The translations under genes were made by a program, and so were the position numbers. Shown here one piece after another: positions 10,365 to 49,992 of a DNA stretch of 64,000 bases (positions within the stretch are counted from its first letter, which is position 1; the number at the start of each line of letters is the position of its first letter). Location: positions 1 to 64,000 of the forward strand of contig NZ_JAUYUS010000002.1 in the NCBI RefSeq assembly GCF_030694575.1, in the 5' to 3' direction. Origin of the DNA: Parvibaculum sp. (GTDB lineage: Bacteria; Pseudomonadota; Alphaproteobacteria; Parvibaculales; Parvibaculaceae). Below the pieces are notes generated by a model that had not been told where the DNA came from, did not search any database, and was given only the letters and a program-made list of their open reading frames with translations.

Positions 10365-10393
10365 TTGCTTGTTAAATACGGGGGAGGTTATAG
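10365..10393 (+). promoter_or_regulatory. Candidate promoter of mucR
   Basis: TTGCTT at 10365-10370 and TTATAG at 10388-10393 are separated by 17 bases. They lie in an unusually AT-rich spacer (10188-10430), which is the kind of DNA MucR/Ros proteins bind. The -10 lies within a small inverted repeat, GGAGG...CCTCC (10383-10401). Autoregulation is a family trait and is inferred here. Confidence 0.45.
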
Positions 10394-10482
10394 AGTCCTC
10401 CGTAATATTTTGTTCAATTGACGGTCCGGACAGGTGCGCAACAAATGCGATGCGCGCAGGCCCGAAATTTCAAGAGGTCCTT

Positions 10483-10899
10483 GTGGCGGAAAAGGCGGAA
10501 TTGATCGATATGACGGCCGAAATCGTTTCGGCCTACATAGGCAATAACACCATCGCTCCCGATGAAATCGCCGGTCTTATCAACAAAGTGTTCGTCGCGC
10601 TGGCGGGGGTGAACGGGAATGAAGCGCCGCCGCTCGAAAGGCCGGAGCCGGCGGTGCCGATCCGCAAGTCGATAACGCCGGATCATCTGGTCTGCCTGGA
10701 AGACGGCAAGAAATTCAAGTCGCTGAAGCGGCATCTGCGCACGCATTACAATCTGACCCCGGAGCAATACCGGGAAAAGTGGGGGCTGCCGCGCGACTAT
10801 CCGATGGTCGCGCCCAACTACGCGCAGGCCCGCTCGCGCCTGGCGAAGAAGATGGGTCTCGGCCAGAACGGACGCCGCCGCCGCCGCACCGCAAAATAA
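10483..10899 (+). CDS. mucR: MucR/Ros family transcriptional regulator
   Basis: The GTG at 10483 has AAGAGG five bases upstream and gives a 138-residue protein beginning 'MAEKAELIDMTAEIVSAY'. This matches the MucR length (about 140); ATG 10450 would add 11 residues. The N-terminus carries the family oligomerisation helix. The C-terminus has the DNA-binding block 'KFKSLKRHLRTHYNLTPEQYR' and 'YPMVAPNYAQARSRLAK'. The zinc site reads C-L-E-D instead of C-x2-C, so the second Cys ligand is Asp, as in several Ros homologues. It is probably a global nucleoid-associated repressor. Confidence 0.9.
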   Translation: MAEKAELIDMTAEIVSAYIGNNTIAPDEIAGLINKVFVALAGVNGNEAPPLERPEPAVPIRKSITPDHLVCLEDGKKFKSLKRHLRTHYNLTPEQYREKWGLPRDYPMVAPNYAQARSRLAKKMGLGQNGRRRRRTAK

Positions 10900-11075: not shown

Positions 11076-11546
11076 GTGCCGGAGCAGCGCGAACTCTTCG
11101 ACTACTGGCGCTCGAAATCGGTGGATGGCGGCTATCCGACGCGCGCCGATATTCAGCCTGCGGAGTTGCGGCGCATGTTGCCGTCGCTCAGTCTTCTGGA
11201 TGTGGTGGAAGGCGAACCGGAGCGGCTGCGTGTGCGCCTCGCGGGAACGCGGCTGCGCGATTATCTCGGCGTCGAAATCACGAACAGGTATCTCGACGAA
11301 TTCGATCTCGGCGACCAGACGGATTACTGGGACGCCGCTTACCGCGAAGTCATCCGCGTCGGCCGGCCCACGCAGGGCGTGATCTCGCTGGCGCCGTGGA
11401 AGCAGCCCGGCGTCTTCCAGTTCTGGCTGCGCCTGCCGCTGGCGGACGGCGAGGGCCGCATCGCGATGGTGCTCGGCCACGACGCCTTCCTGCATTCGGA
11501 GAAGGCCCACGCGCTCGCCGGAAAAGCCAATCTCCGTATCGCCTAG
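11076..11546 (+). CDS. PAS domain-containing protein (PAS_5 family)
   Basis: The roughly 156-residue protein is nearly all one PAS_5 (PF07310) domain. It shows 'LFDYWRSKSVDGGYPTRADIQP', 'LRRMLPSLSLLDVV' and 'RVRLAGTRLRDYLGVEIT', the typical alphaproteobacterial pattern. The GTG at 11076 is the nearest standard start. An in-frame CTG at 11037 would add 13 residues beginning like 'TSADQA' and has GAGG about ten bases upstream, so the true start is uncertain. The role is unknown, probably small-molecule sensing. It follows mucR by 176 bases. Confidence 0.75.
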   Translation: MPEQRELFDYWRSKSVDGGYPTRADIQPAELRRMLPSLSLLDVVEGEPERLRVRLAGTRLRDYLGVEITNRYLDEFDLGDQTDYWDAAYREVIRVGRPTQGVISLAPWKQPGVFQFWLRLPLADGEGRIAMVLGHDAFLHSEKAHALAGKANLRIA

Positions 11547-11614: not shown

Positions 11615-12076
11615 ATGACGACCGGTTCATCTTGTTCGCGCGCGGCGCTGATGCTGGCATTGGCGCTGGTGGCGGGCGGACCTGCTTCCGCCGCGGCCAT
11701 CGCGACGCTGGAAGGCGGGACGGCGACGATCGCGGAAGGAGAGACGGCGTCGTTTCCCATCGGCGGCGCGAGCAATGGCCCGGCCGACCTCAGGGCGCGC
11801 TGCGAAATCTCCGATGTGAGCGGGACGGCGAGCTTGACCTTCGACGGCGAGCACTACGTGCCGCTGTCGGACCCGGCCGTCGGCGATGTGATTACGCTCT
11901 CGCGCGGCGACACGCGCGTCTATGAGCTTGTCGGCGTGGCGGACGGCAGCGACGCCTATGTCGCCTTTCATTTCACAGGCGCACCCGCCGCGATGTGCTT
12001 TCCCGGCATGAACTGCGACGGCGCGGAGGGAGCGGCCGGTTCCGTGACCGTCAGTTGCGAGAACGCAGCGCGCTGA
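11615..12076 (+). CDS. Secreted hypothetical protein
   Basis: The 153-residue protein starts at ATG 11615, eight bases after GGGAGG, and has a Sec signal peptide ending near 'GGPASA'. The mature domain is Gly/Thr/Asp-rich and predicted beta, with a Cys pair, 'CEISDV' and 'MCFPGMNCDG', plus a C-terminal 'VTVSCEN'. I do not recognise the family. Its last 26 bases overlap the convergent regulator gene on the opposite strand. Confidence 0.65.
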   Translation: MTTGSSCSRAALMLALALVAGGPASAAAIATLEGGTATIAEGETASFPIGGASNGPADLRARCEISDVSGTASLTFDGEHYVPLSDPAVGDVITLSRGDTRVYELVGVADGSDAYVAFHFTGAPAAMCFPGMNCDGAEGAAGSVTVSCENAAR

Positions 12077-12647
12077 CACCCGGAAAATGACGTACCAGCG
12101 TGACGACGGGCGCGATCCAGCCGGGCCCCGCGATGTCGCGCGGCAGGGCGCCCGGCTCCGGCGGGACGAGTACGCAATGCGACGGCGATAGCGCGATGAG
12201 GCGCCCGAAGCCGTAGCCGCCCGCCGCATCCGCCGCGAAACAATCATAGCCAAGTGCCGCTGACGCCTTTTCCACCGGCAGCCGGTCCGCGATCAGGATG
12301 TCGCCGGGGCTGTAGTCCCCGATCCGTTCCACCACCTTGAAGGCCAGCGGCTCGCGCGCGGCGGAGGCGAGCGACACCGGCAATGCCGGCGGTTCGCCCA
12401 GCGGCGCGACGCCGCCGCGCCCGACTTCCCCCAGACAGGCGACGCGGCCCGGCCCCGGTGCATCCAGCAGGTCGGGCACGCCGACCTCCAGCACGCCCGC
12501 GATCCGTTCCAGCCAGTCCATCGAGATCGTCATGTCGGCGGTTTCGAGCCGCGAAACCGTGGCCGCGGTGGTGCCGAGCCGTGCCGCCAGCTCGCCCTGC
12601 GTCAGCCCACGCTGCTTCCTGAAGTGGCGAATTCGCGTGCGCATCAT
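12051..12647 (-). CDS. XRE repressor with S24-like C-terminal domain (RogA-like candidate)
   Basis: The 198-residue protein has an XRE helix-turn-helix at residues 5-58 ('GLTQGELAARLGTTAATVSRLE'-type helix pair). Its C-terminal half looks like a degenerate LexA/CI dimerisation fold ('YSPGDILIADRLP'). The usual catalytic GxSM serine is missing, so it is unlikely to cleave itself. A GGAGGAG site precedes ATG 12647. It is divergent from the DnaA-IV/DUF6456 gene pair across 120 bases. In Caulobacter the repressor RogA controls gafYZ; by domain architecture and arrangement this gene is the counterpart candidate, which is inference. Confidence 0.7.
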   Translation of the reverse strand: MMRTRIRHFRKQRGLTQGELAARLGTTAATVSRLETADMTISMDWLERIAGVLEVGVPDLLDAPGPGRVACLGEVGRGGVAPLGEPPALPVSLASAAREPLAFKVVERIGDYSPGDILIADRLPVEKASAALGYDCFAADAAGGYGFGRLIALSPSHCVLVPPEPGALPRDIAGPGWIAPVVTLVRHFPGVSALRSRN

Positions 12648-12685
12648 CCGCTGCTCCTCCGTTCCGGATGAAAATATTACACGAG

Positions 12686-12714
12686 TTTATCCCCGATATG
12701 TACGAAATATGCAA
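12686..12714 (-). promoter_or_regulatory. Candidate promoter for the RogA-like gene
   Basis: On the minus strand TTGCAT (12714-12709) and GATAAA (12691-12686) are separated by 17 bases, predicting a leader of about 30 bases before ATG 12647. It lies in an AT-rich divergent spacer, so repressor bound here could also control the opposite operon. Confidence 0.35.
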
Positions 12715-12734
12715 TTCATGGTTTAGACAAAGAA

Positions 12735-12749
12735 GTTCTCTTTTTGTTC
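12735..12749 (+). promoter_or_regulatory. LexA (SOS) box, GTTC-N7-GTTC
   Basis: GTTC-TCTTTTT-GTTC is a perfect match to the alphaproteobacterial LexA-binding direct repeat, with the T-rich centre common in real boxes. It ends 18 bases before the ATG of the DnaA-domain gene. LexA bound here would block initiation or elongation of that operon. One or so chance matches are expected per window this size, so position is the main support. Confidence 0.55.
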
Positions 12750-12767
12750 TCAGGTGGGAGCGGCAAA

Positions 12768-13136
12768 ATGGATCGGCAGGATTTCGCGGAAACGGGCTGG
12801 GTGGCGGTTCAGGGCGGCCAGGAACGGGCAGCCCAGGTGGCGCTGATGCAGGAGACGGTGGCGCGGGCATGGAACGTGCCCGTGGACGAGATGCGGTCTC
12901 CGACCCGGCGCAGGGCCCCGGTGGCGCAGGCGCGGCAGGTCGCGATGTACCTGACCCATGTGCTTTACGGCTTCAGCCTCTCGGCGGTCGGACGGTATTT
13001 CGGCCGCGACCGGACGACGGCGGCCCATGCCTGCCGCCTGATCGAGGACCGGCGCGACGACGAGAATTTCGACATGCTGCTCGACCGCCTTGAACACGCG
13101 CTCCGCCGCGCCGGCACGGGACAGGTGCGGCAATGA
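12768..13136 (+). CDS. DnaA domain IV-like DNA-binding protein (GafY-like candidate)
   Basis: The 122-residue protein is essentially an isolated DnaA C-terminal domain. It has 'RRAPVAQARQVAMYLTHVLYGFSLSAVGRYFGRDRTT' with the signature 'GRDRTTAAHACRLIE', and no ATPase domains, so it is not DnaA. GGTGGGAG precedes ATG 12768. It overlaps the DUF6456 gene by ATGA. In R. capsulatus GafA fuses a DnaA-like DNA-binding domain to a second domain, and in Caulobacter these are two proteins, GafY and GafZ, that activate GTA genes. This gene fits the GafY position. Confidence 0.75.
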   Translation: MDRQDFAETGWVAVQGGQERAAQVALMQETVARAWNVPVDEMRSPTRRRAPVAQARQVAMYLTHVLYGFSLSAVGRYFGRDRTTAAHACRLIEDRRDDENFDMLLDRLEHALRRAGTGQVRQ

Positions 13137-13945
13137 ACGCCAAGCGGACGGGACGGGCCTTCGAACGGGAACTGCGGCGCGTCTTCCGCTGCCTTGCGGA
13201 GCCGGGCGCCTATGCGCGGGCGACGGCGGACGGCCGGATCGGCCTTTACGGGCCGAGGGGCGCGAAGCCGGCGGCGACGGTCGAGCCCGCCTTCTGGGCG
13301 CTGTGCGAGGCGCGCGACCTGGTGATGGCGGAGGCAAGGAAGGGCGTGCCCGTCTGGCGCCTGAGCGAGGTGGGCCAGGCCTGTTACCGCCGGCTGACGG
13401 CGGAGGCGGAACCCTTCGGCGCGCAACACAGGCTCATGGGGCAGCGCGTTTTCCGCGAGGCCGGGGGCGGCGAGGCGCGGCTGGCGGTCAACGAGGCGGA
13501 ATCGCCGCTCGGCTGGCTCCGCCGCCGCAAGGGCGCGGACGGAAAGCCGCTGATCGACGAGGCACAATACGAGGCGGGCGAGCGGCTGCGGGCCGATTTC
13601 ACGATCGCGCAGCTCACGCCGCGCGTGACGGCCGACTGGTCGGCGGTGACGGTGAGCGGCAGGCGCGCGCGCGACCCCGCCGAGATCGCCGATCACGCGC
13701 TGGCGGCGCGCCAGCGCGTCGGCCGCGCGCTCGATGCGGTGGGCCCGAAGCTCTCGGACATATTGCTCGCCGTCTGCTGCCATCTCGACGGGCTGGAAAC
13801 GACGGAGCGCAGCTTCGGCTGGCCGAAGCGCTCGGCGAAGCTGGTGCTGCAGATCGCGCTCGACCGGCTGGCCGCGCATTACGGCATGGGCGGGAGGAAG
13901 ACGAAGGATCAGGCGGTGGCGGCGACGGCCCTGGCGTCCGACTGA
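13133..13945 (+). CDS. DUF6456 protein (GafZ-like candidate)
   Basis: The 270-residue protein has a C-terminal DUF6456 domain at roughly residues 120-260. The domain shows 'SPLGWLRRRKGADGKPLID', 'YEAGERLRADFTIAQLTPRV' and 'DVGP'-like 'DAVGPKLSDILLAVCCHLDGLE', ending 'SAKLVLQIALDRLAAHYG'. The N-terminus reads as a winged-helix-like segment. It is translationally coupled to the DnaA-IV gene. As I recall, the second domain of GafA and the Caulobacter anti-terminator GafZ belong to this class; I could not check this. A direct role on the GTA cluster here is inferred. Confidence 0.75.
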   Translation: MNAKRTGRAFERELRRVFRCLAEPGAYARATADGRIGLYGPRGAKPAATVEPAFWALCEARDLVMAEARKGVPVWRLSEVGQACYRRLTAEAEPFGAQHRLMGQRVFREAGGGEARLAVNEAESPLGWLRRRKGADGKPLIDEAQYEAGERLRADFTIAQLTPRVTADWSAVTVSGRRARDPAEIADHALAARQRVGRALDAVGPKLSDILLAVCCHLDGLETTERSFGWPKRSAKLVLQIALDRLAAHYGMGGRKTKDQAVAATALASD

Positions 13946-14334
13946 ATGCGGGCGACCATCGAATAGAGGCCGTTGGAACGCTGCGGCGTCAGATGCTCGT
14001 CGAGGCCGAGCTTCTGGAAGACGGCGCGGGCATCGACGGCGAGAATGTCGGCGGGCGCCTTGTCGGAATAAAGCCGCATCAGGATCGCCACCAGGCCGCG
14101 CACGATATGGGCATCGCTGTCGCCGCGGAAATGGAGGAGGGGGCGCCCGTTCGCGTCCCGGCGGAGCTCGTTCACCAGCCAGACCTGGCTGACGCAGCCC
14201 GGCACCTTGTTCTCCGCCGAATGCTCGGCCTCGCTCAAGGGCTCGAGATCCTTGCCCAGCTCGATCACGTAGCGGTACCGCTCCTCCCACTCATCGAGGA
14301 AGGCGAAATCGTCTATGAGGTCCTGAATGCTCAT
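13909..14334 (-). CDS. sufE: SufE family Fe-S cluster assembly protein
   Basis: The 141-residue protein matches SufE, which accepts persulfide sulfur from the cysteine desulfurase SufS. Key features are 'DFAFLDEWEERYRYVIELG', the active-site loop 'VPGCVSQVWL' with the acceptor Cys, and 'SDAHIVRGLVAILMRLYS'. The length is typical (about 140). It overlaps the 3' end of the convergent DUF6456 gene by 37 bases. sufS is not in the window. Confidence 0.92.
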   Translation of the reverse strand: MSIQDLIDDFAFLDEWEERYRYVIELGKDLEPLSEAEHSAENKVPGCVSQVWLVNELRRDANGRPLLHFRGDSDAHIVRGLVAILMRLYSDKAPADILAVDARAVFQKLGLDEHLTPQRSNGLYSMVARIQSDARAVAATA

Positions 14335-38098: not shown

Positions 38099-38338
38099 GG
38101 AGGTTCCCTGGGAGCAGTGGGGGAAGTATGCACGACGGCTGCCAAAACAGAAGTGCGAAGGGGGGCGGCGCGTGCCGCGCCTTCTGGATTGCCGGGTCAA
38201 GCCCGGCAAAGACGAGTAATGGGAAAGGGGAGGGTGGGAAGCACCGGCAGCGGCTTCAATTCAAAAGATATCCCCAATTGTCAGCGCGGCGCTCCATCCC
38301 TACCTTCCATCCATCTCCAGAATTGTGCGGTGAGGAAC

Positions 38339-39055
38339 ATGGCAGCGAAGAAGGCGGCGCCTGCGAAGGTGCGCGCGGTGAAGAAGGCCGTGCCGAAGAA
38401 AGCGCCGGCAAAGAAGCGGGCGGTTGGAAAAGACGAGGCGCCGCTACCCCTCCCCGAAATTTGCCCCGCCGACGCGGCTCAAATTTCGACCCTCCCGCAG
38501 GGGGAGGGTGGAGAGATACTGCGCGCGGCGAAAGATGAAGACATCGATTGGGAAACGATCCGCGCGGATTACGAGATCGGGACGCGATCTCTCTCGGAGA
38601 TTGCGCTCGAACACCGGATCACGACGCAGAAAATCACATCGAGAGCGTGGCGGGAGAGCTGGCCGAAGCGCGGCGAGGTCGTGCAGGAGGCGGCGCTTGC
38701 AACCGAACTGCCCGACGACGCGGAGGCGCTGGCGGCGCGGCTGACGAAGCTGATCGCCCGCGAAATCGCGGATATCGAGCGCCAGAGCAAGGTGACGCGC
38801 GACGACGCGGAAGGCGAGCGGCAGGCGCGGCGGCTGTCGTCGCTGGTACGCTCCATCGACAAGCTCCACGAAATCGAACAGGCGGCGAGGCTGGCGAAAA
38901 AACATGACCCTGCATCCGACAAGGCAAAACGCGCCGCGGAGGACAAGCGGCTGCGCGCCGAACTTGAACAGCGGCTTGCTCGCCTCTTTGCCACCGCCGA
39001 TGCGGACGGACTTCGTGAAAGGGCTGACGCGGCGGGAAGTGCGGCTGCTTGCTGA
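38339..39055 (+). CDS. GTA small terminase-like protein (g1) with repeat-derived insert
   Basis: The 238-residue protein starts at ATG 38339, after GTGAGG. The N-terminus is a Lys/Ala-rich tail ('AAKKAAPAKVRAVKKA'). A helix-turn-helix-like region around residues 75-110 ('WETIRADYEIGTRSLSEIALEHRI') and a helical C-terminus ('RQARRLSSLVRSIDKLHEIEQAARLAKK') are as expected of GTA g1/TerS proteins. Residues about 37-58 ('PEICPADAAQISTLPQGEGG'-type) are translated from an inserted REP family C palindrome. It is first gene of the GTA cluster and overlaps terL. Confidence 0.75.
   Translation: MAAKKAAPAKVRAVKKAVPKKAPAKKRAVGKDEAPLPLPEICPADAAQISTLPQGEGGEILRAAKDEDIDWETIRADYEIGTRSLSEIALEHRITTQKITSRAWRESWPKRGEVVQEAALATELPDDAEALAARLTKLIAREIADIERQSKVTRDDAEGERQARRLSSLVRSIDKLHEIEQAARLAKKHDPASDKAKRAAEDKRLRAELEQRLARLFATADADGLRERADAAGSAAAC
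38445..38514 (+). repeat. REP family C element inside the g1 coding sequence
   Basis: The 70-base segment matches the right half of the 37431 composite (ACCCCTCCCCGAAATT...CAAATTTCGACCCTCCC.CAGGGGGAGGGTGG) and is read in frame through the g1 gene without a stop. It is comparable in idea to protein-inserted palindromic elements of Rickettsia. Confidence 0.8.
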
Positions 39056-40250
39056 CGACTGGCGCTTCTGGGCGCGGGAAGACCAGCTTGCGCCGGAGGG
39101 CGGCTGGACGACATGGCTGGTGCTGGGCGGGCGCGGCGCGGGCAAGACGCGCGCCGGCGCCGAATGGGTGGCGGCGGAAGTGGCCGCAGGCCGGGCGAGC
39201 CGCATCGCGCTGATCGGCGAGACGCTGGCGGATGCGCGCGAGGTGATGATCGACGGGCCCTCGGGGCTCCGCACGATTGCGCGGGCGGACGAGAAACCAC
39301 GATATGAGGTGACGCGGAAGCGTCTCCTTTGGCCGAACGGCGCTGTGGCCCATGTGTTTTCCGCGGGCGAGCCGGAAAGCCTGCGCGGGCCCCAGTTCGA
39401 CGCGGCCTGGGGCGACGAGCTGGCGAAGTGGCGCTATGCGGAAGCGGCCTGGGACATGCTGCAATTCGGATTGCGCCTCGGCGAGAACCCCCGCCAGGTG
39501 ATGACGACGACGCCGCGCCCCGTGCCGGTGCTGAAGCGGCTGATCGCGGACAAGACGACCGTGACGACAAGGGCCGCGACGGCGGCGAACCGCGCGAACC
39601 TCGCCGACGGATTTTTCCGCGCCGTGATCGCGCGCTACGAGGGCACGCGGCTCGGGCGGCAGGAACTCGACGCCGAACTGATCGACGACAACCCGGACGC
39701 GCTGTGGAAGCGCGAAACGATCGAGCGCGGCCGCGTGGAGCGGGCCGTGGAGTTCGTGCGCGTGGTGGTGGGCGTCGATCCGCCGGCGACGAGCGGCGCG
39801 AAGTCGGACGAATGCGGCATCGTCTGCGCCGCGCTGGGCGCGGACGGGCATGGCTATGTGCTGGACGACCGCTCGATGGGCGGCTTGTCGCCGCTCGCCT
39901 GGGCGAAGCGCGTGGCCGGCTGCTACCGCGCGCATGAGGCGGACCGGATCGTCGCGGAAAGCAATCAAGGCGGCGAGATGGTCGGCTCGGTGATGCGGCA
40001 GGAAATGCCCGACGCGCCGATCCGTCTTGTGCGGGCGACGCGGGGGAAGGCGGTGCGCGCCGAACCCATCGCGGCTTTATATGAGCGCGGGCTGGTGCAT
40101 CACGTGGGTGCATTCGCGAAGCTCGAGGATCAGTTATGCGATTGGGTGCCGGGCGGGAAAAGCCCGGACAGGCTGGATGCGCTGGTCTGGGCACTGACGG
40201 AGTTGATGCTGCTTGGCGAGGCGGGGGTGCCGAGGATGCGGAGGTTGTAG
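38976..40250 (+). CDS. GTA large terminase, TerL (g2)
   Basis: The roughly 424-residue packaging ATPase/nuclease has Walker A 'LGGRGAGKTRAGAEW', adenine/Walker B 'FSAGEPESLRGPQFDAAWGDELAKW', coupling 'MTTTPRPVPVLKRL' and RNase-H-type nuclease acids in 'VVGVDPPATSG'. It packages host DNA into GTA heads. The start is uncertain: ATG 38904, TTG 38976 and ATG 39000 are in frame. TTG 38976 is chosen because it keeps 'LLASLPP...R.DFV..L', a segment I recall from GTA TerL N-termini. Confidence 0.88.
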   Translation: MLASLPPPMRTDFVKGLTRREVRLLADDWRFWAREDQLAPEGGWTTWLVLGGRGAGKTRAGAEWVAAEVAAGRASRIALIGETLADAREVMIDGPSGLRTIARADEKPRYEVTRKRLLWPNGAVAHVFSAGEPESLRGPQFDAAWGDELAKWRYAEAAWDMLQFGLRLGENPRQVMTTTPRPVPVLKRLIADKTTVTTRAATAANRANLADGFFRAVIARYEGTRLGRQELDAELIDDNPDALWKRETIERGRVERAVEFVRVVVGVDPPATSGAKSDECGIVCAALGADGHGYVLDDRSMGGLSPLAWAKRVAGCYRAHEADRIVAESNQGGEMVGSVMRQEMPDAPIRLVRATRGKAVRAEPIAALYERGLVHHVGAFAKLEDQLCDWVPGGKSPDRLDALVWALTELMLLGEAGVPRMRRL

Positions 40251-40286
40251 AAGGTGGGAAGAGTGTTGGCAGTAGCCAAAACAAAT

Positions 40287-40370
40287 TGTCATCCCGGCGG
40301 AAGCCGGGATCCATCTGACTCTCGTATCTGTGTTGTCCGCTCATGGGCCCCGGCTTTCGCCGGGGTGACA
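40287..40370. repeat. REP family A, copy 2
   Basis: Arms TGTCATCCCGGCGGAAGCCGGG and CCCCGGCTTTCGCCGGGGTGACA enclose a 40-base centre. The centre differs from copy 3 by a single base (C/T), so the two are a recent duplication. Confidence 0.9.
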
Positions 40371-40411
40371 CTGAGTTTTTGGTTTGGTCCGGTGGCTAAA
40401 AGGGCCGGTTT

Positions 40412-40592
40412 CTTCCACCCTCCCCTTGGGGGAGGGTCAGACCGCTGCAAGCGGTTTGGGGCGGGGTCGCCGTGGTGCGATGGGTGCAGGCGCGAGCGTG
40501 TTCGTTGTATTTAGCGCCGCGACCCCGCCCCGAAAAATTCTTCGCGTTCCGCTCGAATTTTGTCGACCCTCCCCCAAGGGGAGGGTGGGGAG
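40412..40592. repeat. REP family C composite palindrome, copy 3
   Basis: It has the same design as 37431-37600: outer CCACCCTCCCC/GGGGAGGGTGG blocks and inner hairpins (GACCGCTGCAAGCGGTTT). The centre is unrelated. Confidence 0.85.
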
Positions 40593-40624
40593 AATGGTTT
40601 GATTGGCGGGACATAAAACAAAAC

Positions 40625-40708
40625 TGTCATCCCGGCGGAAGCCGGGATCCATCTGACTCTCGTATTTGTGTTGTCCGCTCATGGGCCCCGGCTTTCGCCG
40701 GGGTGACA
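40625..40708. repeat. REP family A, copy 3
   Basis: It is almost base-for-base the same as the copy at 40287, including the centre, in the same orientation. Confidence 0.9.
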
Positions 40709-40778
40709 CCGAGTTTTTTGTTTTTGCCGGCGTTCAACCTTGTCCGTCGCCGCTGCAATTCACATACAGGAAATCAAC

Positions 40779-41954
40779 ATGCCCAATCCGTTGACGGCGC
40801 TTGCGCGGCTGGTGCGGCCGCGTGAGGCGAAGCAGAGCCGGGTGGCGCCGGTGATTGCGCTGCATATGCAGGGGCGGGCCGTGTGGACGCCGCGGGATTA
40901 TGCGCCGCTGGCGGAGGAGGGCTATCAGCGCAATGCGGTGGCCTATCGCTGCGTGCGGATGATCGCGGAGGCGGCGGCGAGCGTGCCCTGGCTGCTTTAC
41001 GACGGCGCGCGGGAACTGACCGAGCATCCGCTGCTGCGGCTGATCGAAAGCCCGAACAAGGGGCAGGCGGGCGCCGAGCTTTTCGAGACCTGGTACAGTT
41101 ATCTGCAGGTGGCGGGGAATGCCTATCTCGAACTTGTGGAGGTGGACGGGGCCCCGCGCGAGCTTTATGCGCTCAGGCCCGACCGCATGAAGGCGGTGCC
41201 GGGGCGGGCGGGCTGGCCGGAGGCTTACGAATATTCCGTGAACGGACGGAGCGTGACCATTCCCTGCGGCGAGCGGAGCCCGATCCTGCATATGCGGCTC
41301 TTCCACCCCTCCGACGATCATTATGGACTGAGCCCGCTCGAAGCGGCGGCCTATGCCATCGACATCCACAACGCAGCCGGCGCCTGGAACAAGTCGCTGC
41401 TCGACAATGCGGCGCGGCCCTCCGGCGCGCTCGTCTACAAGGGCGGCGAGGCGGGCGCGAACCTGACCGAAGACCAGTTCGAGCGGCTGAAACGGGAGCT
41501 GGCGGAAAACTATCAGGGCGCGGCGAATGCCGGGCGTCCGCTGCTGCTGGAAGGCGGGCTCGACTGGCAGAGCATGGGACTTTCGCCCAAGGACATGGAC
41601 TTCATCGAGGCGAAGCGGACGGCGGCGCGCGAAATCGCGCTCGCCTTCGGCGTGCCGCCGATGCTGCTCGGCATTCCGGGCGACAACACCTATTCCAATT
41701 ACCGCGAGGCGAACCGGGCCTTCTGGCGCGGCACGGTGCTGCCGCTGGTCGGCCGCTCGGCCCGCGCGCTGACGCATTGGTTGGGGCCCCGCTACGAGGG
41801 CAAGCTGCGGCTCTGGTACGACGCCGACCAGGTGGAAGCGCTCGCCGCCGACCGGGACGCGCTGTGGGCGCGGGTCTCGAAGGCCGACTTCCTCAGCGAC
41901 GAGGAGAAGCGCGAGGCGGTGGGCTATGGGAAGGTCAGAGCGTCTTCGACTTGA
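40779..41954 (+). CDS. GTA portal protein (g3)
   Basis: The 391-residue HK97-family portal protein starts at ATG 40779 (AGGAAA upstream). It has 'GYQRNAVAYRCVRMIAEAAASVPWLLYDG', 'LFETWYSYLQVAGNAYLELV', 'DHYGLSPLEAAAYAIDIHNAAGAWNKSLLDN' and 'FGVPPMLLGIPGDNTYSNYREANRAFWR'. The dodecameric portal forms the DNA entry vertex of the GTA head. Its last 20 bases overlap a minus-strand gene. Confidence 0.93.
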   Translation: MPNPLTALARLVRPREAKQSRVAPVIALHMQGRAVWTPRDYAPLAEEGYQRNAVAYRCVRMIAEAAASVPWLLYDGARELTEHPLLRLIESPNKGQAGAELFETWYSYLQVAGNAYLELVEVDGAPRELYALRPDRMKAVPGRAGWPEAYEYSVNGRSVTIPCGERSPILHMRLFHPSDDHYGLSPLEAAAYAIDIHNAAGAWNKSLLDNAARPSGALVYKGGEAGANLTEDQFERLKRELAENYQGAANAGRPLLLEGGLDWQSMGLSPKDMDFIEAKRTAAREIALAFGVPPMLLGIPGDNTYSNYREANRAFWRGTVLPLVGRSARALTHWLGPRYEGKLRLWYDADQVEALAADRDALWARVSKADFLSDEEKREAVGYGKVRASST

Positions 41955-42231
41955 GGATGTTGCGTATCACCACGACGAACGAGACGAAGCCGAAGATCAT
42001 GAAGACGAGGCCGAGGCCGATGCCGCGCATCTGGTACGACAGGAAGATGAGCATCAGCCCGATGATGAGACCGAAGACGCTGTGCGGCGAGAGCCTGTAG
42101 CCCTTGACGGTGAGCAGGGCGGGGATGGCGGCGCCCCGGGCGCGCGTCTTGTCTTCCATCCAGATCAGCAGGACGGGGCCGCAGGCCAGCGCCATGCCCA
42201 TGATGAGGATCATCCATTCGTCGCTCGTCAT
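41935..42231 (-). CDS. Small membrane protein on the opposite strand within the GTA cluster
   Basis: The 98-residue protein starts at ATG 42231. Three hydrophobic segments ('WMILIMGMALACGPVLLIW', 'SVFGLIIGLMLIFLSY', 'GLGLVFMIFGFVSFVVVI') are separated by a basic loop. I do not recognise the family. It reads against all neighbours and fills the g3-g3.5 gap, ending inside the portal gene. It may be a cargo gene or an antisense relic; the well-formed membrane helices support a real gene. Confidence 0.6.
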   Translation of the reverse strand: MTSDEWMILIMGMALACGPVLLIWMEDKTRARGAAIPALLTVKGYRLSPHSVFGLIIGLMLIFLSYQMRGIGLGLVFMIFGFVSFVVVIRNILKSKTL

Positions 42232-42276
42232 CTTGTCTCGTCTTTCGCCGTGGAGAAGGGATCGGGTGAAGTGGAA

Positions 42277-42531
42277 ATGACAGCATACACAAAAGACGAG
42301 GAAAGGGCCTGGCATCTCGACCGCCGGGTGCCCATCGCCGTGATCGTGACGCTGCTGCTGCAATCGGCGGCGGCGCTGGTCTGGGCGGGCTCGGCGAACG
42401 AGCGGCTCTCGGCGCTGGAGGTTCGGGCGGTGCGGATCGACGAGATGGTGGAGCGGACCGCGCGGCTGGAGGAGCGGGCAAAGGCCGCATCGGCGGCGCT
42501 GGAGCGGATCGAGGCGAGGCTGGAGCGGTAG
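42277..42531 (+). CDS. GTA g3.5-like small membrane protein
   Basis: The 84-residue protein has the N-terminal basic segment 'RRVP', one transmembrane helix ('IAVIVTLLLQSAAALVWAG') and a coiled-coil tail rich in Glu/Arg/Ala. It resembles the small gene between portal and protease in RcGTA-type clusters (g3.5). GGGTGAAGTGG precedes ATG 42277. The role is unknown. Confidence 0.7.
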   Translation: MTAYTKDEERAWHLDRRVPIAVIVTLLLQSAAALVWAGSANERLSALEVRAVRIDEMVERTARLEERAKAASAALERIEARLER

Positions 42532-42581
42532 CCATCCTTTCACTGATGGCGAGAAACGACCGGCCGATCACAAATAAAAGC

Positions 42582-42725
42582 TGTCATCCCGGCGAAAGCC
42601 GGGACCCACTCGCGAGGCAGCTTGCCGCAGCGACGGACAGATTGTGCCCGTTTCCCGCGAGCGACGCCCCGCCGGACAACCCTTGCTGAGAGAACCAATG
42701 GGTCCCGGCTTTCGCCGGGATGACA
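42582..42725. repeat. REP family A, copy 4
   Basis: TGTCATCCCGGCGAAAGCCGGGACCCA and ATGGGTCCCGGCTTTCGCCGGGATGACA arms are separated by about 95 bases with a weak inner palindrome. It fills the gap between g3.5 and the prohead protease. Confidence 0.9.
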
Positions 42726-42777
42726 ATTGTGGTTTGGGCGGCCCTGCGTCGCAACCATCCTTGAACGGAGGAAGACC

Positions 42778-43437
42778 TTGAGTGGAATGAGAGGCGGCGA
42801 GCGCAAGGCGGCGCGGTTTCTGGCGAAGGCGGTGAAGCCGGATGGGACGTTTGAGGGCTATGCGTCGCTGTTCGGGGCGGAGGATCTCGGCCGCGACGTG
42901 GTGATGCCGGGCGCGTTCCGCAAATCGCTTCTGAAGCGCGGGCCGAAGGGCGTGAAGCTTCTCTATCAGCATGAGCCGAACGAGGTGATCGGCATCTGGA
43001 CCGGGATCGCGGAGGACCATGAAGGGCTCTTCGTGCGCGGGCAGTTGCTGCAGGACGTCTCCCGCGCGCGCGAGGTGCTGGCGCTGATGCGCGCCGGCGC
43101 GGTCGACGGATTGTCGATCGGCTATCGCGTCGTGAAGGCGGAGGCCGACCGCGCGACCGGCGCGCGACGTCTGATCGAGGTCGATCTCTGGGAAATTTCC
43201 GTCGTGACCTTTCCGATGCTGCCGGAAGCGCGCGTGCGCGCGGTGAAGGGGGCGAGGCCGACGACACGCGAATTCGAACGCTGGCTCATGCGGGACGCTG
43301 GGCTGAGCCGGACGGAAGCCCGGACGGTGATCCACAAGGGCTTCAAGGCGCTGAACTCCCCGCGGGAAGCGGGCGGGCCCGGCGATGCGGCGCTGGCACG
43401 GGCGCTTCGCCTGGCCGCGCGGCTTTTCAACAACTGA
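42778..43437 (+). CDS. GTA prohead protease (g4)
   Basis: The 219-residue HK97-type serine protease (herpes-assemblin fold) has 'GYASLFGAEDLGRDVVMPGAFRKSL', catalytic His in 'LLYQHEPNEVIG' and Ser in 'AGAVDGLSIGYRVVKAE'. TTG 42778 is six bases after GGAGG and is preferred; ATG 42787 is second. It cleaves the scaffold part of the capsid precursor during head maturation. A C-terminal extension of about 60 residues follows the protease core. Confidence 0.9.
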   Translation: MSGMRGGERKAARFLAKAVKPDGTFEGYASLFGAEDLGRDVVMPGAFRKSLLKRGPKGVKLLYQHEPNEVIGIWTGIAEDHEGLFVRGQLLQDVSRAREVLALMRAGAVDGLSIGYRVVKAEADRATGARRLIEVDLWEISVVTFPMLPEARVRAVKGARPTTREFERWLMRDAGLSRTEARTVIHKGFKALNSPREAGGPGDAALARALRLAARLFNN

Positions 43438-43467
43438 CCATCATCACATCTCTAACGGAGTGGACCC

Positions 43468-44775
43468 ATGTCCCATTGGAATGACGGCGTGCCGCGCATC
43501 GGCGCGTCGCTGAAGAAGGAACCGCGCGCGCCCGAGACGAAAAGCGCGGAGACGCGGAGCGCGAGCGCGCATGAAGTGCGGGACGCGATGGACGAATTTC
43601 TCTCGTCCTTCGAGGATTTCAAGTCGGCGAACGACGAGCGGCTCGGCGAACTCGAGCGCAAGCTCTCAGCCGACGTGCTGACGGAAGAGAAGGTCGACCG
43701 CATCAACCGCGCGCTCGACATGCAGAAGAAGAAGATGGACGAGCTGACGCTCGCCGCCGCCCGCCCCGAGATCGGCGGCACACGCGGGGGCGAGGGTTAT
43801 GCCGGCCGCGAACACAAACGCGCCTTCGACCGCTATGTCCGCAAGGGCGAGGCGCATGAGTTGCGCGGGCTGGAGGCGAAGGCGCTTTCGGTCGGCTCCG
43901 ATCCCGACGGCGGCTACCTGGTGCCGGCCGAGACGGAGAAGATGATCGACCGCATCATCTCCGAAGTCTCGCCGATCCGCGCCATCGCGGGCATCCGCCA
44001 GATCGGCTCGGCAAGCTACAAGAAGCCCTTCGCCGCCGGCGGCATGCAGACCGGCTGGGTCGGCGAAACGGAAGCGCGGCCGCAGACCGCGACGCCCTCG
44101 CTCGCCGAGATCGAATTCCCGGCGATGGAGCTCTATGCGATGCCGGCGGCGACGCCGACGCTGCTCGACGACGCGGCGGTGAACATCGACCAGTGGCTGG
44201 CGGAGGAAGTGCAGACGGCCTTCGCCGAACAGGAAGGCGCCGCCTTCGTCATCGGCGACGGCGTGAAGAAGCCGCGCGGCTTCCTCGACTACGACATGGT
44301 GGCGGAGAATGCCTGGGAATGGGGCAAGCTCGGCTTCATCGCGACGGGGAACGAAGGCGGCTTCCCGACCTCGAACCCGGCCGACAAGCTGATCGACCTC
44401 GTCTATGCGGTGAAGGCGGGCTACCGCGCCAATGGCCGCTTCGTCATGAACCGCGCGACGCAATCCTCGATCCGCAAGTTCAAGGATACGGACGGCAACT
44501 ATCTCTGGCAGCCGGCCGTCGCGGCAGGACAGCCGCCGACGCTGCTCAATTATGCGGTGACGGAGGCGGAGGACATGCCGTCCATGGAAGCGGGCGCACC
44601 GGCGGTCGCCTTCGGCGATTTCCGGCGCGGCTACCTGATCGTCGACCGGCTCGGCGTGCGCGTGCTGCGCGATCCCTACAGCGCCAAGCCCTATGTGCTC
44701 TTCTACACGACGAAGCGCGTGGGCGGCGGCGTGCAGAACTTCGAGGCGATCAAGTTCCTCAAGTTCCAGGCCTGA
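43468..44775 (+). CDS. GTA major capsid protein (g5)
   Basis: The 435-residue HK97-fold capsid has an N-terminal helical scaffold/delta domain (residues 1-110, coiled coil 'ERLGELERKLSADVLTEEKVDRINRAL'), then the mature capsid from about 'LSVGSDPDGGYLVPAETEKMI'. It also shows 'GWVGETEARPQTATPSLAEIEFPAMELYA' and the C-terminal 'YFTTKRVGGGVQNFEAIKFLKF'-like end (here 'FYTTKRVGGG'). The g4 protease should remove the N-terminal domain. Confidence 0.95.
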   Translation: MSHWNDGVPRIGASLKKEPRAPETKSAETRSASAHEVRDAMDEFLSSFEDFKSANDERLGELERKLSADVLTEEKVDRINRALDMQKKKMDELTLAAARPEIGGTRGGEGYAGREHKRAFDRYVRKGEAHELRGLEAKALSVGSDPDGGYLVPAETEKMIDRIISEVSPIRAIAGIRQIGSASYKKPFAAGGMQTGWVGETEARPQTATPSLAEIEFPAMELYAMPAATPTLLDDAAVNIDQWLAEEVQTAFAEQEGAAFVIGDGVKKPRGFLDYDMVAENAWEWGKLGFIATGNEGGFPTSNPADKLIDLVYAVKAGYRANGRFVMNRATQSSIRKFKDTDGNYLWQPAVAAGQPPTLLNYAVTEAEDMPSMEAGAPAVAFGDFRRGYLIVDRLGVRVLRDPYSAKPYVLFYTTKRVGGGVQNFEAIKFLKFQA

Positions 44776-44779
44776 TGCG

Positions 44780-45211
44780 ATGCGCGATATTCATCACGGA
44801 CTGAAGGTGGTGCAGACGCTCGACCCCGCGCAGACCACCGCCACGCGCTACGGCGCGCCGGTGGACCGCAAGGGCTTCGAGGCAGTGGAGCACATCGTCT
44901 GCATCGGCACGGCGGGCGACGAACTGTCGGAGGAGGCCGCGATCGCCTGCGCGATCGAGGACTCCGAGGACGGCTCCACCTGGGCGGCGGTGACGGAGCC
45001 GCGCGAGGTGCTGGGCGGCCCGGTGGACGAGGACGGTGTCTTCGCCACGGTGGACGACGTGGCGCACGACCAGCGCGACTACCGCATCGGCTATGTCGGC
45101 CCCGCCCGCTACACACGGGTCGCCGTCATCCTCACGGGCGAGCACGAGGAAGGCACGCCCGTCGCGGCGCTCGCCCTGCTCGGCAACGCGAACCTGAAGC
45201 CGGTGAACTGA
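44780..45211 (+). CDS. Putative GTA head protein, possible capsid cement or decoration
   Basis: The 143-residue protein starts at ATG 44780, five bases after the capsid stop. It is predicted beta-rich: 'GLKVVQTLDPAQTTATRYGAPVDRKGFEAVEHIVCIG', 'EDGSTWAAV' and 'DYRIGYVGPARYTRVAVILTG'. RcGTA has no gene at this position. Its place right after the capsid gene and its size suggest a head decoration or cement protein; this is an inference. Confidence 0.6.
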   Translation: MRDIHHGLKVVQTLDPAQTTATRYGAPVDRKGFEAVEHIVCIGTAGDELSEEAAIACAIEDSEDGSTWAAVTEPREVLGGPVDEDGVFATVDDVAHDQRDYRIGYVGPARYTRVAVILTGEHEEGTPVAALALLGNANLKPVN

Positions 45212-45220
45212 TACTTCTCC

Positions 45221-45247
45221 TCCCACCCTCCCTTCGGGGAGGGTGGA
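45221..45247. repeat. REP family C short palindrome
   Basis: TCCACCCTCCC-type arms (TCCCACCCTCCC/GGGAGGGTGGA) lie 9 bases after the preceding stop, in the short gap before g6. They could attenuate read-through. Confidence 0.75.
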
Positions 45248-45266
45248 TTTTATTGGCAGGATTTTC

Positions 45267-45830
45267 ATGACGCTCATGCTCATTACGGGGCCGGCGGAGG
45301 AGCCGGTGACGCTGGCGGAGGCGCGGGCGCATCTGCGCCTCGACGCGGGCGGCGAAGACGCGCTGCTCGGCGCGCTCGTCACCGCGGCGCGGACCGCGCT
45401 CGAAGCGGAAACGCGCCGTGCCTTCGTCACGCAATCCTGGCGGCTCCTGCTCGACGACTGGCCGGCGAAACCGATCCGGCTGCCGCTCGCACCCGTGCAG
45501 AGCGTGACGGCGGTGACGGTGGCGACGATGAGCGGAGCGATGGTGCCGCTCGACCCGGCCTTTTACGAGGTGGACGCCAAGGGCGAACCGCCGCGCGTCG
45601 CGGCCAAACGCGGACAGGCCTGGCCGATGCCGGCAACGCGGCTGGCAGGCATCGCGGTCGACTTCACGGCGGGCTATGGCGCGCCTTCCGCCGTGCCCGC
45701 GCCGCTGAAACAGGCGGTGCTGCTGCTCGCGGCGCACTGGTTCGAGAACCGCGAGCCGCTTGGCAATGGCGTGGAACTGCCGTTGACAGTTTCCGCGCTC
45801 GTCGCGCGTTACCGGAGACTGCATCTGTGA
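45267..45830 (+). CDS. GTA head-tail connector (g6, phiE125 gp8 family)
   Basis: The 187-residue protein starts at ATG 45267 after AGGA. 'PAEEPVTLAEARAHLRLDAGGEDALLGALVTAARTALEAETRRAF' is the classic DNA-packaging/connector fold start, followed by 'SWRLLLDDWP' and a beta domain, ending 'LKQAVLLLAAHWFENRE'. It builds the ring below the portal. It overlaps g7 by GTGA. Confidence 0.9.
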   Translation: MTLMLITGPAEEPVTLAEARAHLRLDAGGEDALLGALVTAARTALEAETRRAFVTQSWRLLLDDWPAKPIRLPLAPVQSVTAVTVATMSGAMVPLDPAFYEVDAKGEPPRVAAKRGQAWPMPATRLAGIAVDFTAGYGAPSAVPAPLKQAVLLLAAHWFENREPLGNGVELPLTVSALVARYRRLHL

Positions 45831-46144
45831 TCGGCGCCATGAGCGAGCGCGTGACGCTGCAATCTCCGGTCCGCACGGCCGACGGCGCGGGCGGCGCGGC
45901 GGTCACGTGGAATGAAGGCGCGAGCGTCTGGGCGAAGGTCGAAATGCTGGGCGGCGGCGAAACGCCCATGGCGGAGCGGCTGGAAGCGCGGGCGCGGGTC
46001 CGCGTGACCATCCGGCATCACCCGGGCGTGACGGCGGAAATGCGCGCCGTCTGGCAAGGCCGCGCGCTCGACATTCGCAATGTGCGGGACCTGGACGGGC
46101 GGAAGCGTTTTCTCGTGCTCGATTGCGAGGAGGTGCGGCCATGA
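45827..46144 (+). CDS. GTA head closure protein (g7)
   Basis: The 105-residue head closure/adaptor (SPP1 gp16-like) protein has 'RVTLQSPVRTADGAGGAAVTWNEGASVWAKVEML' and 'RVTIRHHPGVTAEMRAVWQGRALDIRNVRDLDGRKRFL'. The GTG start overlaps the g6 stop; ATG 45839 is an alternative. It overlaps g8 by ATGA. Confidence 0.9.
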   Translation: MIGAMSERVTLQSPVRTADGAGGAAVTWNEGASVWAKVEMLGGGETPMAERLEARARVRVTIRHHPGVTAEMRAVWQGRALDIRNVRDLDGRKRFLVLDCEEVRP

Positions 46145-46542
46145 ACGCGGACCTTGCGCTGCAGAAGGCGATATACGCGCGGCTGGCGGCGGACGAGGCC
46201 CTGGCGGCGCTGGTGGGCGGACGCATCCACGACAATGTGCCGGGCGACGTGGACCTGCCTTACCTGACGCTCGGCGACAACGATACGCGCGACTGGCCCG
46301 GCGGCACCGAGCACCGGCTCTCATTGCATGTGTTTTCGCGCGGCGGCGGGCGGGCGGAGGCGAAGGCGATCATCGGCGCGGTGAATGCGGCGCTGCATGA
46401 CGCGGCGCTGACGCTCGAGGGACATGCTCTCGTCAACCTGCGTTTTCTCGATGCGATGACGCGGCGCGAGCGCGACGGCGAAACATGGCGCGGCACGATC
46501 CGCTTTCGCGCGGTGACGGAGGAGATTTCCGATGCGCTGTAA
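46141..46542 (+). CDS. GTA tail terminator, DUF3168 (g8)
   Basis: The 133-residue DUF3168 protein has 'LQKAIYARLAADEALAALVGGRIHDNVPGDVDLPYLTLGD' and 'HVFSRGGGRAEAKAIIGAVNAAL'. Tail terminators cap the tail tube and join it to the connector. It is coupled to g7. Confidence 0.9.
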   Translation: MNADLALQKAIYARLAADEALAALVGGRIHDNVPGDVDLPYLTLGDNDTRDWPGGTEHRLSLHVFSRGGGRAEAKAIIGAVNAALHDAALTLEGHALVNLRFLDAMTRRERDGETWRGTIRFRAVTEEISDAL

Positions 46543-46559
46543 ATCGCCAGATATAGAAG

Positions 46560-46702
46560 TGTCATCCCGGCGAAAGCCGGGACCCACTCGCAAATCAGAT
46601 TGTTCAGCCGTCGAATGGTTTTGGCGTTCACGGCCATTGAGCCCCGTGCTCCTCGACATCTGCTGAGGGAACCAATGGGTCCCGGCTTTCGCCGGGATGA
46701 CA
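46560..46702. repeat. REP family A, copy 5
   Basis: It has the same arms as copy 4 (CCCGGCGAAAGCCGGGACCCA and GGGTCCCGGCTTTCGCCGGGATGACA), a centre of about 90 bases and the same orientation. It separates g8 from the major tail gene. Confidence 0.9.
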
Positions 46703-46754
46703 CTGGGTTTTTGATCTCGTCAACACTCAAGACCGACAGTCAGGAAAAAGAATC

Positions 46755-47168
46755 ATGACGGCCCAGAAAGGCAAGGACCTTCTCATCAAGCTCGACGCGG
46801 CCGGAGAGGGGAGCTTCACCACCGTGGCAGGGTTGCGCACGCGGGCGCTCGCCTTCAACGCGCGCGCGGTCGATGTGACACATGCGGAATCCGCCGGGCG
46901 CTGGCGCGAGCTGCTGGAAGGCGCGGGCGTGCGCTCGGCGGGGATCACCGGACGCGGCATCTTCAAAGATGCGGCGTCGGACGCCGCGGTGCGGCAGATA
47001 TTCTTCGACGGCGCGATCCGCAACTGGCAGGTCGTGATCCCCGATTTCGGCACGGTGCAGGGCCCATTCCAGATCACGGCGCTGGAATTCTCCGGCGAGC
47101 ATGACGGCGAAGTGAGTTTCGACCTGGCGCTCGAAAGCGCGGGCGAGATTGCGTTCGCGGCGGTCTGA
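46755..47168 (+). CDS. GTA major tail protein (g9, TP901-1 family)
   Basis: The 137-residue tube protein has 'AQKGKDLLIKLDAAGEGSFTTVAGLRTRALAFNARAVDVTHAESAGRW', 'GRGIFKDAASDAAVRQIFFDGAIRNWQVVIPDFG' and 'LEFSGEHDGEVSFDLALESAGEIAF', matching phage major tail TP901-1/GTA g9. Confidence 0.93.
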   Translation: MTAQKGKDLLIKLDAAGEGSFTTVAGLRTRALAFNARAVDVTHAESAGRWRELLEGAGVRSAGITGRGIFKDAASDAAVRQIFFDGAIRNWQVVIPDFGTVQGPFQITALEFSGEHDGEVSFDLALESAGEIAFAAV

Positions 47169-47197
47169 GGCGCAACACGTTCAGTCGCCAGAGGTCG

Positions 47198-48109: not shown

Positions 48110-48220
48110 AAGTCCCCCATTTTCGCGAACGTACAGTTCTGCAAGTTGCCCCGCTTCAACAATAGCTGTCTTGCGCCGCGGAAATCCAGCGGCATGTCGC
48201 CGACGAAATCGAGGAGTCAT

Positions 48221-48538
48221 ATGGCGAACCGTCACAGAGGCGAAATCGAAGCGGTGCTCGACGGCGAGCGGATGACGCTGGTGCTGACGCTCGGTGCGCT
48301 GGCGGAGCTGGAACAGGCGTTCGGCGGCGAGGACATGCTGGCGCTGGCGAGCCGTTTCGAGACCGGACGCATTTCGGCGAGCGATGCCATTCGCATTATC
48401 GGCGCGGGACTGCGCGGCGCGGGTTATGAGCGGAGCGATGCGGATGTCGCGCGCATGACGGCCGAGAACGGCGCGGGCGGCTTCGTCGCCATCGTCGCGG
48501 ACCTGCTGTCGGCGACGTTCGGCGGAAGCGCGGCGTGA
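48221..48538 (+). CDS. GTA gene 10 family protein
   Basis: The 105-residue protein starts at ATG 48221, after GAGGAG. 'RHRGEIEAVLDGERMTLVLTLGALAELEQAFGGEDMLALASRF' and 'VARMTAENGAGGFVAIVADLLSATFG' match GTA_gp10 (PF11836), a tail assembly chaperone-like family. It overlaps g10.1 by GTGA. Confidence 0.92.
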   Translation: MANRHRGEIEAVLDGERMTLVLTLGALAELEQAFGGEDMLALASRFETGRISASDAIRIIGAGLRGAGYERSDADVARMTAENGAGGFVAIVADLLSATFGGSAA

Positions 48539-48729: not shown

Positions 48730-48736
48730 GGATCCC

Positions 48737-49354: not shown

Positions 49355-49355
49355 A

Positions 49356-49988: not shown

Positions 49989-49992
49989 CTAA

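Follow-up and report, generated by a model that had tools for sequence, protein, structure and literature searches.

What controls production of the gene transfer agent (GTA), a domesticated virus, encoded in a Parvibaculum genome, and is its repressor the one known from Caulobacter? We have analysed a stretch of 64,000 nucleotides (positions 1 to 64,000 of the forward strand of contig NZ_JAUYUS010000002.1, Parvibaculum sp.; called the window below) in which an XRE gene is divergent from two coupled genes. The initial annotation read the three as probably the repressor RogA and the activators GafY and GafZ, linked to a full GTA cluster. Our analysis bears out a GafYZ switch next to a GTA; what is new is its putative repressor, and the RogA label should be dropped. 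On balance it is probable that GafYZ is the master switch of this GTA and that a repressor encoded beside it stands in place of RogA. The RogA-GafYZ pathway itself is already in print (PMC9632790, PMC11150451). Genomes, contigs and loci are referred to by numbers prefixed G, C and L.

GafY and GafZ homologues linked to a GTA cluster

All three open reading frames (ORFs) are present in the arrangement first described. The XRE gene (12051..12647, minus strand) encodes 198 amino acids (aa) with matches to the Pfam helix-turn-helix (HTH) families HTH_3 (E = 1.2e-10) and HTH_31 (E = 9.8e-12). Divergent from it is gafY (12744..13136, plus strand, 130 aa), encoding a stand-alone DnaA domain IV protein (Bac_DnaA_C, E = 1.3e-19), which is coupled by an ATGA overlap at 13133-13136 to gafZ (13133..13945, plus strand, 270 aa; DUF6456, E = 3e-53). 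This is the single DUF6456 match in the genome. An in-frame ATG at 12768, preceded by GGTGGGAG, appears the likelier start of gafY and would give a product of 122 aa.

The names GafY and GafZ are borne out by homology. Profiles from the Parvibaculum family match Caulobacter GafY at 80-113 bits and Caulobacter GafZ, encoded after gafY, at 161-183 bits, both in 8/8 loci, and a whole-genome profile search found GafZ in all ten genomes of the Caulobacter genus. We take these genomes to be Caulobacter from the PopZ protein of G256, which is identical to that of C. crescentus. The predicted structure of GafZ (mean predicted local distance difference test score, pLDDT, 88.0) includes an N-terminal winged helix (approximately residues 6-91; best structural matches Z 8.2 and 8.0), the DUF6456 region (residues 119-251) and a sigma-4-like HTH (191-252), the C-terminal part resembling sigma region 4 (3vfz, Z 6.8, 62 residues, root mean square deviation (rmsd) 1.5). 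These Z values are middling, yet the predicted winged helix and HTH agree with the published description of GafZ and its sigma-like HTH (PMC11150451). A sequence search of the PDB with GafZ gave just two chance-level matches (E = 1.7 and 2.1), and Foldseek with the GafZ model returned nothing at E <= 0.001. At the level of sequence, the identification of the window activators as GafY and GafZ homologues is supported.

The GTA cluster reported some 25 kb away is also real, with 24.4 kb between 13945 and its first gene. This gene, g1 (38339..39055, plus strand), is the small terminase by position. The remainder (38904..55886, plus strand) comprises terminase, portal, protease, capsid and tail genes, together with genes for a GTA_TIM protein (51317-55177, E = 1.1e-152) and a DUF2793 protein. 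The genes identified are those for terminase, portal, prohead protease, capsid, connector, DUF2460, Gp84/BR0599, NlpC/P60 and GTA_TIM/Rcc01698. The cluster has the terminase, portal, protease, capsid and GTA_TIM proteins by which we recognise a GTA of the Rhodobacter capsulatus (RcGTA) type. Among the 146 genomes searched, 54 gave a DUF6456 match and 42 a GTA_TIM match. In 19 genomes of the family the two are on one contig, about 30-47 kb apart, and since this spacing recurs we consider the linkage of gafYZ to the GTA a family trait.

Some genomes vary this arrangement. G019 and G029 (L059 and L039; 100% and 99% complete) keep XRE, gafY and gafZ with no GTA_TIM match, and in G019 a GTA-type promoter is still present on the gafYZ contig; either the cluster was lost or the assembly has a gap there. 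At L069 (in the one-contig genome G050) XRE adjoins a short DUF6456 gene; GafY has no match in that locus, nor GTA_TIM in the genome. The pair may be a relic or may have been re-used. The same-genus genome G006 has two full-length GTA_TIM loci (C1:290057 and C23:120519). In ten Parvibaculaceae loci (L033, L038, L040, L042, L045, L049-L052 and L061) the winged-helix domain is absent from the N-terminus of GafZ, the profile match beginning at position 79-90 of 266. In Rhodobacter GafA the region preceding the C-terminal domain is reported to bind the omega subunit of RNA polymerase (PMC9638019). If the two regions correspond, these shorter GafZ proteins could be natural deletions of the omega-binding counterpart.

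The adjacent XRE protein and RogA

In Caulobacter crescentus, rogA (CCNA_00080, 213 aa; PMC9632790), gafYZ (CCNA_01111-01112) and the GTA (CCNA_02880-02861) are described as lying in three separate places (PMC9632790, PMC11150451). The two systems have in common homologous gafYZ operons and a repressor with an HTH and a LexA/CI-like domain (PMC9632790, PMC11150451). They differ in that the putative repressor of Parvibaculum is a protein other than RogA, and its gene adjoins gafYZ.

The architecture of XRE is indeed that of RogA. In a structure comparison of the XRE model (mean pLDDT 86.9), residues 1-66 pair with CI-type HTHs and residues from about 67 to 190 align to LexA C-domains (Z 9.6-10.2, 110-115 residues, rmsd 2.9-3.3). 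This likeness, the similar length (198 versus 213 aa), the position of XRE on the gafYZ operon and a weak local match to the RogA of the same genome (E = 0.031 over 87 aa beginning at residue 20; 12 sequences in the set) all favour the proposal that XRE is this lineage's RogA in a canonical RogA-GafY-GafZ switch. The kinship indicated by the local match is at HTH level at most.

The proposal is nevertheless scarcely credible in view of the other comparisons. The best E values of XRE against Caulobacter RogA are 23-25, which is no significant similarity, and contig C8 of the host genome encodes a RogA orthologue that is 51% identical to the Caulobacter protein across 213 aligned columns (E = 1.7e-71). 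Orthologues were found in all four Parvibaculum genomes searched (G000, G013, G017 and G019), including G017, which lacks XRE. In the one-contig genome G013 the orthologue is 475 kb from gafYZ. The Pfam S24 profile finds RogA and does not find XRE, even at E = 10. It locates a RogA-type gene at 85.7 kb of the one-contig Caulobacter chromosome G301, with a counterpart in G256. Translated from its first Met, the G301 protein is exactly 213 residues long, and at the LexA-like GDSM position it carries GDEL, in keeping with the reported absence of catalytic residues. Conversely, a search of ten Caulobacter genomes with the XRE profile gave no full-length match and only weak matches to the HTH part (best 50.7 bits). 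As orthology, the equation of XRE with RogA is refuted; as shared function it forms part of the best explanation. XRE is a separate CI/LexA-fold protein that shares with RogA only its architecture and, presumably, its role. A phage-borne XRE was also considered and rejected, as one viral contig gave an HTH-only match. Relatives of DUF6456 are encoded on six viral contigs.

The predicted fold of XRE is like that of lambda CI and LexA-type repressors. However, no Ser or Lys past residue 66 of XRE is conserved at 90% in a 34-sequence alignment, and self-cleavage is therefore not expected. The RogA proteins of G000 (L186, contig C8), G013 and G017 keep the Ser of GDSM and the Lys of VVVKT, as does that of the Caulobacter-genus genome G311 (loci L183, L185, L186 and L187 for the set); those of G256 and G301 are without both. 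Since the Ser and Lys of the LexA autopeptidase are kept, the RogA of G000, G013, G017 and G311 may be cleavable. In the RogA of G019, GDSM is present and the VVVKT lysine is absent.

Full-length XRE matches (at least 183.6 bits; the next match has 67.9) occur in 36 of the 146 genomes searched, and in 35 of these XRE is on the same contig as, and within 2 kb of, a DUF6456 match. The 36th genome, G005, has no DUF6456 match. The XRE-gafYZ arrangement is far from chance. Thirty-three of the 40 family genomes have the full-length protein, as do three genomes of other families. The seven without are G014, G017, G023, G026, G027, G031 and G034, of which G023, G031 and G034 are under 80% complete. 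A divergent XRE gene is likewise present in 33 of the 40 loci collected by their DUF6456 gene. Within a set of 80 named loci, XRE has a scattered distribution beyond the Parvibaculum group (examples are Rhodomicrobium L097 and the loci L073, L076, L081, L083, L087 and L092), and it was not found in those of Kaistia, Hyphomicrobium, Afipia, Xanthobacter and Nitrobacter.

Chance can make divergent genes share a spacer, and XRE might be an independent neighbour that controls, for example, the PAS/mucR side or its own promoter and has no part in the GTA switch. We regard this as quite improbable given the adjacency to gafYZ in 35/36 genomes. The mucR and PAS genes are farther away or absent in some loci, and the candidate XRE site described below lies at a near-fixed distance from the candidate GafY box and tracks the XRE gene.

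Candidate GafY and repressor sites at gafYZ promoters

Promoter comparisons used 101 loci representing 90 distinct gafYZ promoters, 40 with XRE (XRE+) and 50 without (XRE-). Loci with a fused GafY or none, or with fewer than 250 bases upstream, were excluded.

A DnaA-box-like sequence, TTATCCCC, is present in the gafYZ promoter of the window (12687..12694, plus strand), and another candidate GafY element, ATATCCCC, lies at the proposed main GTA promoter (38268..38275, plus strand), 2 bp upstream of the -35. We propose TATCCCC, common to both promoters, as a candidate GafY motif. The evidence is comparative, since within the window the 8-mer box is no rarer than chance (1 match versus 1.07 expected). 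Across the promoter set a TATCC(C/A)C-type box on either strand occurs in 49/90 promoters versus 3.6 expected from shuffles (29/40 XRE+ and 20/50 XRE-; shuffles 1.4 and 2.2).

TATCCCC resembles the DnaA box, whose consensus is TTATCCACA, and it could be a site for chromosomal DnaA or another factor instead of GafY. Its presence at both the gafYZ and the GTA promoters makes this improbable, as does its relationship to a mapped element. The GafY element of Caulobacter was placed at -123 to -113 by truncation and mutation, and its mutation abolishes GafY binding (PMC11150451). With the start site placed in our analysis, G256 has ACTATGGGGAT at these positions, the reverse complement of ATCCCCATAGT, and its near relative G301 has ATGATGGGGAT. 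If correct, TATCCCC offers a candidate motif where Tran and colleagues report that none could be derived from their chromatin immunoprecipitation (ChIP) data (PMC11150451).

Beside the box in the window is the candidate XRE operator GTACGAAATATGCAA (12700..12714), which matches the family consensus TTACG-N5-CGTAA at 7/10 positions. At 8/10 or better the consensus is found in 29/40 XRE+ versus 5/50 XRE- promoters (shuffles 4.4 and 4.2), and control spacings of N3, N4, N6 and N7 give 1, 2, 1 and 7 of the 40 XRE+ promoters. Twenty-three of the 29 XRE+ matches adjoin a GafY-type box or variant. Where a TATCC(C/A)C box is present, a site of at least 7/10 lies within 45 bases of it in 28/29 XRE+ and 4/20 XRE- promoters (shuffles 8/29 and 5/20), and one of at least 8/10 in 17/29 and 2/20.

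XRE- promoters tend to carry a different operator. The pattern AGGA-N6-TCCT at 7/8 or better occurs in 37/50 XRE- versus 4/40 XRE+ promoters (shuffles 4.2 and 2.9; Fisher p = 6e-10, a statistic that ignores kinship). With spacings of N3, N4, N5, N7, N8 and N9 the counts are 4, 3, 12, 3, 4 and 9 of 50 XRE- and 6, 8, 2, 3, 0 and 11 of 40 XRE+ promoters. As a positive control, the published RogA inverted repeat GGAATATCTTCC was recovered in 3/7 Caulobacter gafYZ promoters, the other four having GGAAAGTTATCC or GGAAAATTATCC. The strict RogA operator GGAA-N4-TTCC is not significantly related to XRE presence (0/40 XRE+ versus 5/50 XRE-, p = 0.063); it is absent from the gafYZ promoter of the window, its single match in the window being at 6010, and no RogA-type operator was found at this promoter. 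In two Parvibaculum genomes that have lost XRE, G017 and G026 (best remaining match below 40 bits), the gafYZ promoter carries AGAGGAATTTATTCCTCT. Sequence comparison thus suggests that, according to the presence of XRE, one or the other of two types of operator tends to occur at gafYZ promoters, which is new. AGGA-N6-TCCT at 7/8 also lies upstream of rogA in 4/4 Caulobacterales loci (G101, G256, G301 and G311), and neither operator type is found upstream of the RogA orthologues of G000, G013, G017 and G019.

Both repressors could act on the same operon, XRE together with the unlinked RogA orthologue, the latter through sites outside the consensus used. In support of such a double lock, RogA is retained in the four Parvibaculum genomes searched, both operator types occur at L062, L073 and L092, and in Caulobacter the XRE proteins RtrA, RtrB, CdxA and CdxB and the phage protein TgrL are reported to repress gafYZ besides RogA (PMC10688885, PMC13236601). 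We nevertheless judge it unlikely, because AGGA-N6-TCCT is absent from 36/40 XRE+ promoters and a RogA-type site is present in the two XRE-less Parvibaculum.

A number of observations weigh against a simple exchange of repressor and operator, and against the sites as defined. Six of the 29 XRE+ TTACG matches are not beside a box, and the window is among these: its site beside the box reaches 7/10 only and its 8/10 match is inside the XRE gene. The GafY-type box is missing in 11/40 XRE+ and 30/50 XRE- promoters, and the GTA promoters of one genus in the family (L208-L210, L214 and L219) are without it. The TTACG motif was derived from XRE+ loci that are themselves part of the set used for counting it. 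AGGA-N6-TCCT is a widened pattern picked after inspection of the XRE- promoters, for which reason the spacing and shuffle controls were run, and at N4 and N9 it reaches 8/40 and 11/40 in XRE+ loci. Thirteen of the 50 XRE- promoters have no RogA-type operator; the XRE-less locus L068 (G027) has none and has TTACG at 6/10 only near its box. The XRE+ loci L062, L073 and L092, which are outside the family, also carry AGGA-N6-TCCT, as AGGAAAGTTATCCT or a near variant. Finally, on a GafY+GafZ tree (a quick tree, in which the two long branches L066/L067 are joined) XRE changes state at least eight times, with five changes forced by well-supported branches. Over five independent pairs the RogA operator changes opposite to XRE in 2.2 on average, in the same direction in 0.1 and not at all in 2.7, while the TTACG site changes the other way in 0.1, the same way in 1.7 and not at all in 3.2. 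The directions are as predicted, but neither sign test can reach 0.05; what the pairs suggest is a repressor swap seen in few independent events.

The proposed GTA promoter and switch

The proposed main GTA promoter (38278..38306, plus strand) has TTGTCA (38278-38283) and TACCTT (38301-38306) separated by 17 bp, the -35 and -10 being placed by sequence rather than by mapping. The order of elements is ATATCCCCAA-TTGTCA-17 bp-TACCTT. Between the predicted -35 and -10 lies the palindrome AGCGCGGCGCT (38283..38293), a candidate GafZ-binding element. The published Caulobacter GafZ element is a palindrome at this place, GCGCCCG-CTGGCGC (PMC11150451). The sequence CATCTCCAGAA (38312..38322, plus strand) is conserved at the expected transcript start; Caulobacter has CATGGCCGGAA at an equal distance from its -10, and the first transcribed bases agree as CAT..CC.GAA. 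The C. crescentus promoter is built alike: it has a GafY-type element, a palindromic sequence in the spacer and similar bases at the start of the transcript, with TATCTT as -10 in place of TACCTT. The geometry differs: the GafY-type box is 2 bp from the -35 in Parvibaculum, whereas in Caulobacter the element is described as about 80 bases upstream with integration host factor (IHF) needed (PMC11150451). This placement of the predicted box is a new point.

The position immediately ahead of the -35 is the usual one for activators that touch sigma region 4. Allowing one mismatch, no site for the IHF consensus WATCARNNNNTTR was found in the gafYZ or the GTA promoter, which is weak evidence because this consensus is that of E. 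coli. The 19-base promoter head, with up to three mismatches, has 40 matches in 14 Parvibaculum genomes, 25 of them with at most one mismatch, and the reversed control gave one. Thirteen of the 14 genomes match it; the sole match of G006 has three mismatches and is not at a GTA. Neither in G015 nor in G006 does the GTA carry a close copy of the head.

What we observe directly are the identities and linkage of the genes, a RogA encoded on another contig, and conserved elements whose pattern can be followed from genome to genome. On this basis we propose the following scheme. XRE would bind TTACG-N5-CGTAA beside the GafY box and shut off gafYZ, and probably also its own divergent promoter, until displaced by some signal and not by self-cleavage. 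GafY would then bind the TATCCCC boxes, giving positive feedback at its own promoter and, directly upstream of the GTA -35, being able to touch region 4 of sigma-70. GafZ would bind AGCG-N3-CGCT between -35 and -10 and accompany RNA polymerase across the cluster, acting as an anti-terminator. Repression by XRE and the assignment of the named elements to XRE and GafY are inferences; activation by GafY, sigma contact and anti-termination by GafZ are presumed here from the work on Caulobacter.

More tentatively, and with the chances close to evenly balanced, the scheme may extend further. A non-cleavable, CI-like repressor linked to gafYZ (acting at TTACG-N5-CGTAA) might have replaced RogA (AGGA-N6-TCCT) in several alphaproteobacterial lineages, a RogA-type operator being present instead where XRE was lost again, with TATCCCC as the recognition sequence of GafY and a Parvibaculum GTA promoter that is of a simple class II type and independent of IHF. 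Published work portrays RogA as a brake on GTAs that is both common and conserved (PMC9632790). Should a different repressor do this in Parvibaculum and in scattered lineages elsewhere, their GTA production may answer to different signals. How a repressor not expected to cleave itself would be released bears on the natural inducers of GTAs, which the papers cited here call unknown. A search of the literature by title and abstract, in which subscription papers are mostly outside coverage, found no work on the XRE described here, on an operator for it or on a motif for GafY.

A split gafA has been published for the Hyphomicrobiales (Sherlock and Fogg 2022; PMC9638019), where, as here, a DnaA-like gene and a DUF6456 gene have sufE downstream and mucR or an HTH gene upstream. 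In section 10 of that account the HTH gene is assigned no role in GTA control and operators are not named. GafA of Rhodobacter capsulatus has the same two domains fused in one protein and binds the GTA promoter; it differs in its reported control by CtrA and GtaR and in its flanking genes, for lipoyl synthase and GMP synthase (PMC6363796, PMC9638019). In the window the conserved synteny consists of mucR/ros (10369..10899, plus strand), a PAS_5 gene (11076..11546, plus strand) and sufE (13909..14334, minus strand), the last of which overlaps the 3' end of gafZ. A direct repeat GTTC-N7-GTTC with an 11-bp period (12735-12749) lies between the candidate operator and gafY and is seen by eye in a number of related loci too.

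Extra near-perfect GTA promoter heads were found in G001 (C1:190288, 1329174 and 3564716), G017 (C2:55924 and 56732), G012 and G022 (loci L259-L261, L278, L282, L283, L288, L292, L299 and L300). One precedes by 179 bases a gene whose product has a penicillin-binding transpeptidase domain (L259, 3968-4771, plus strand; PF00905, E = 1.3e-33) and by eye is class D beta-lactamase-like. Others have no gene obviously served and aim into the 3' ends of convergent genes (for example, a PNPOx gene in L260).

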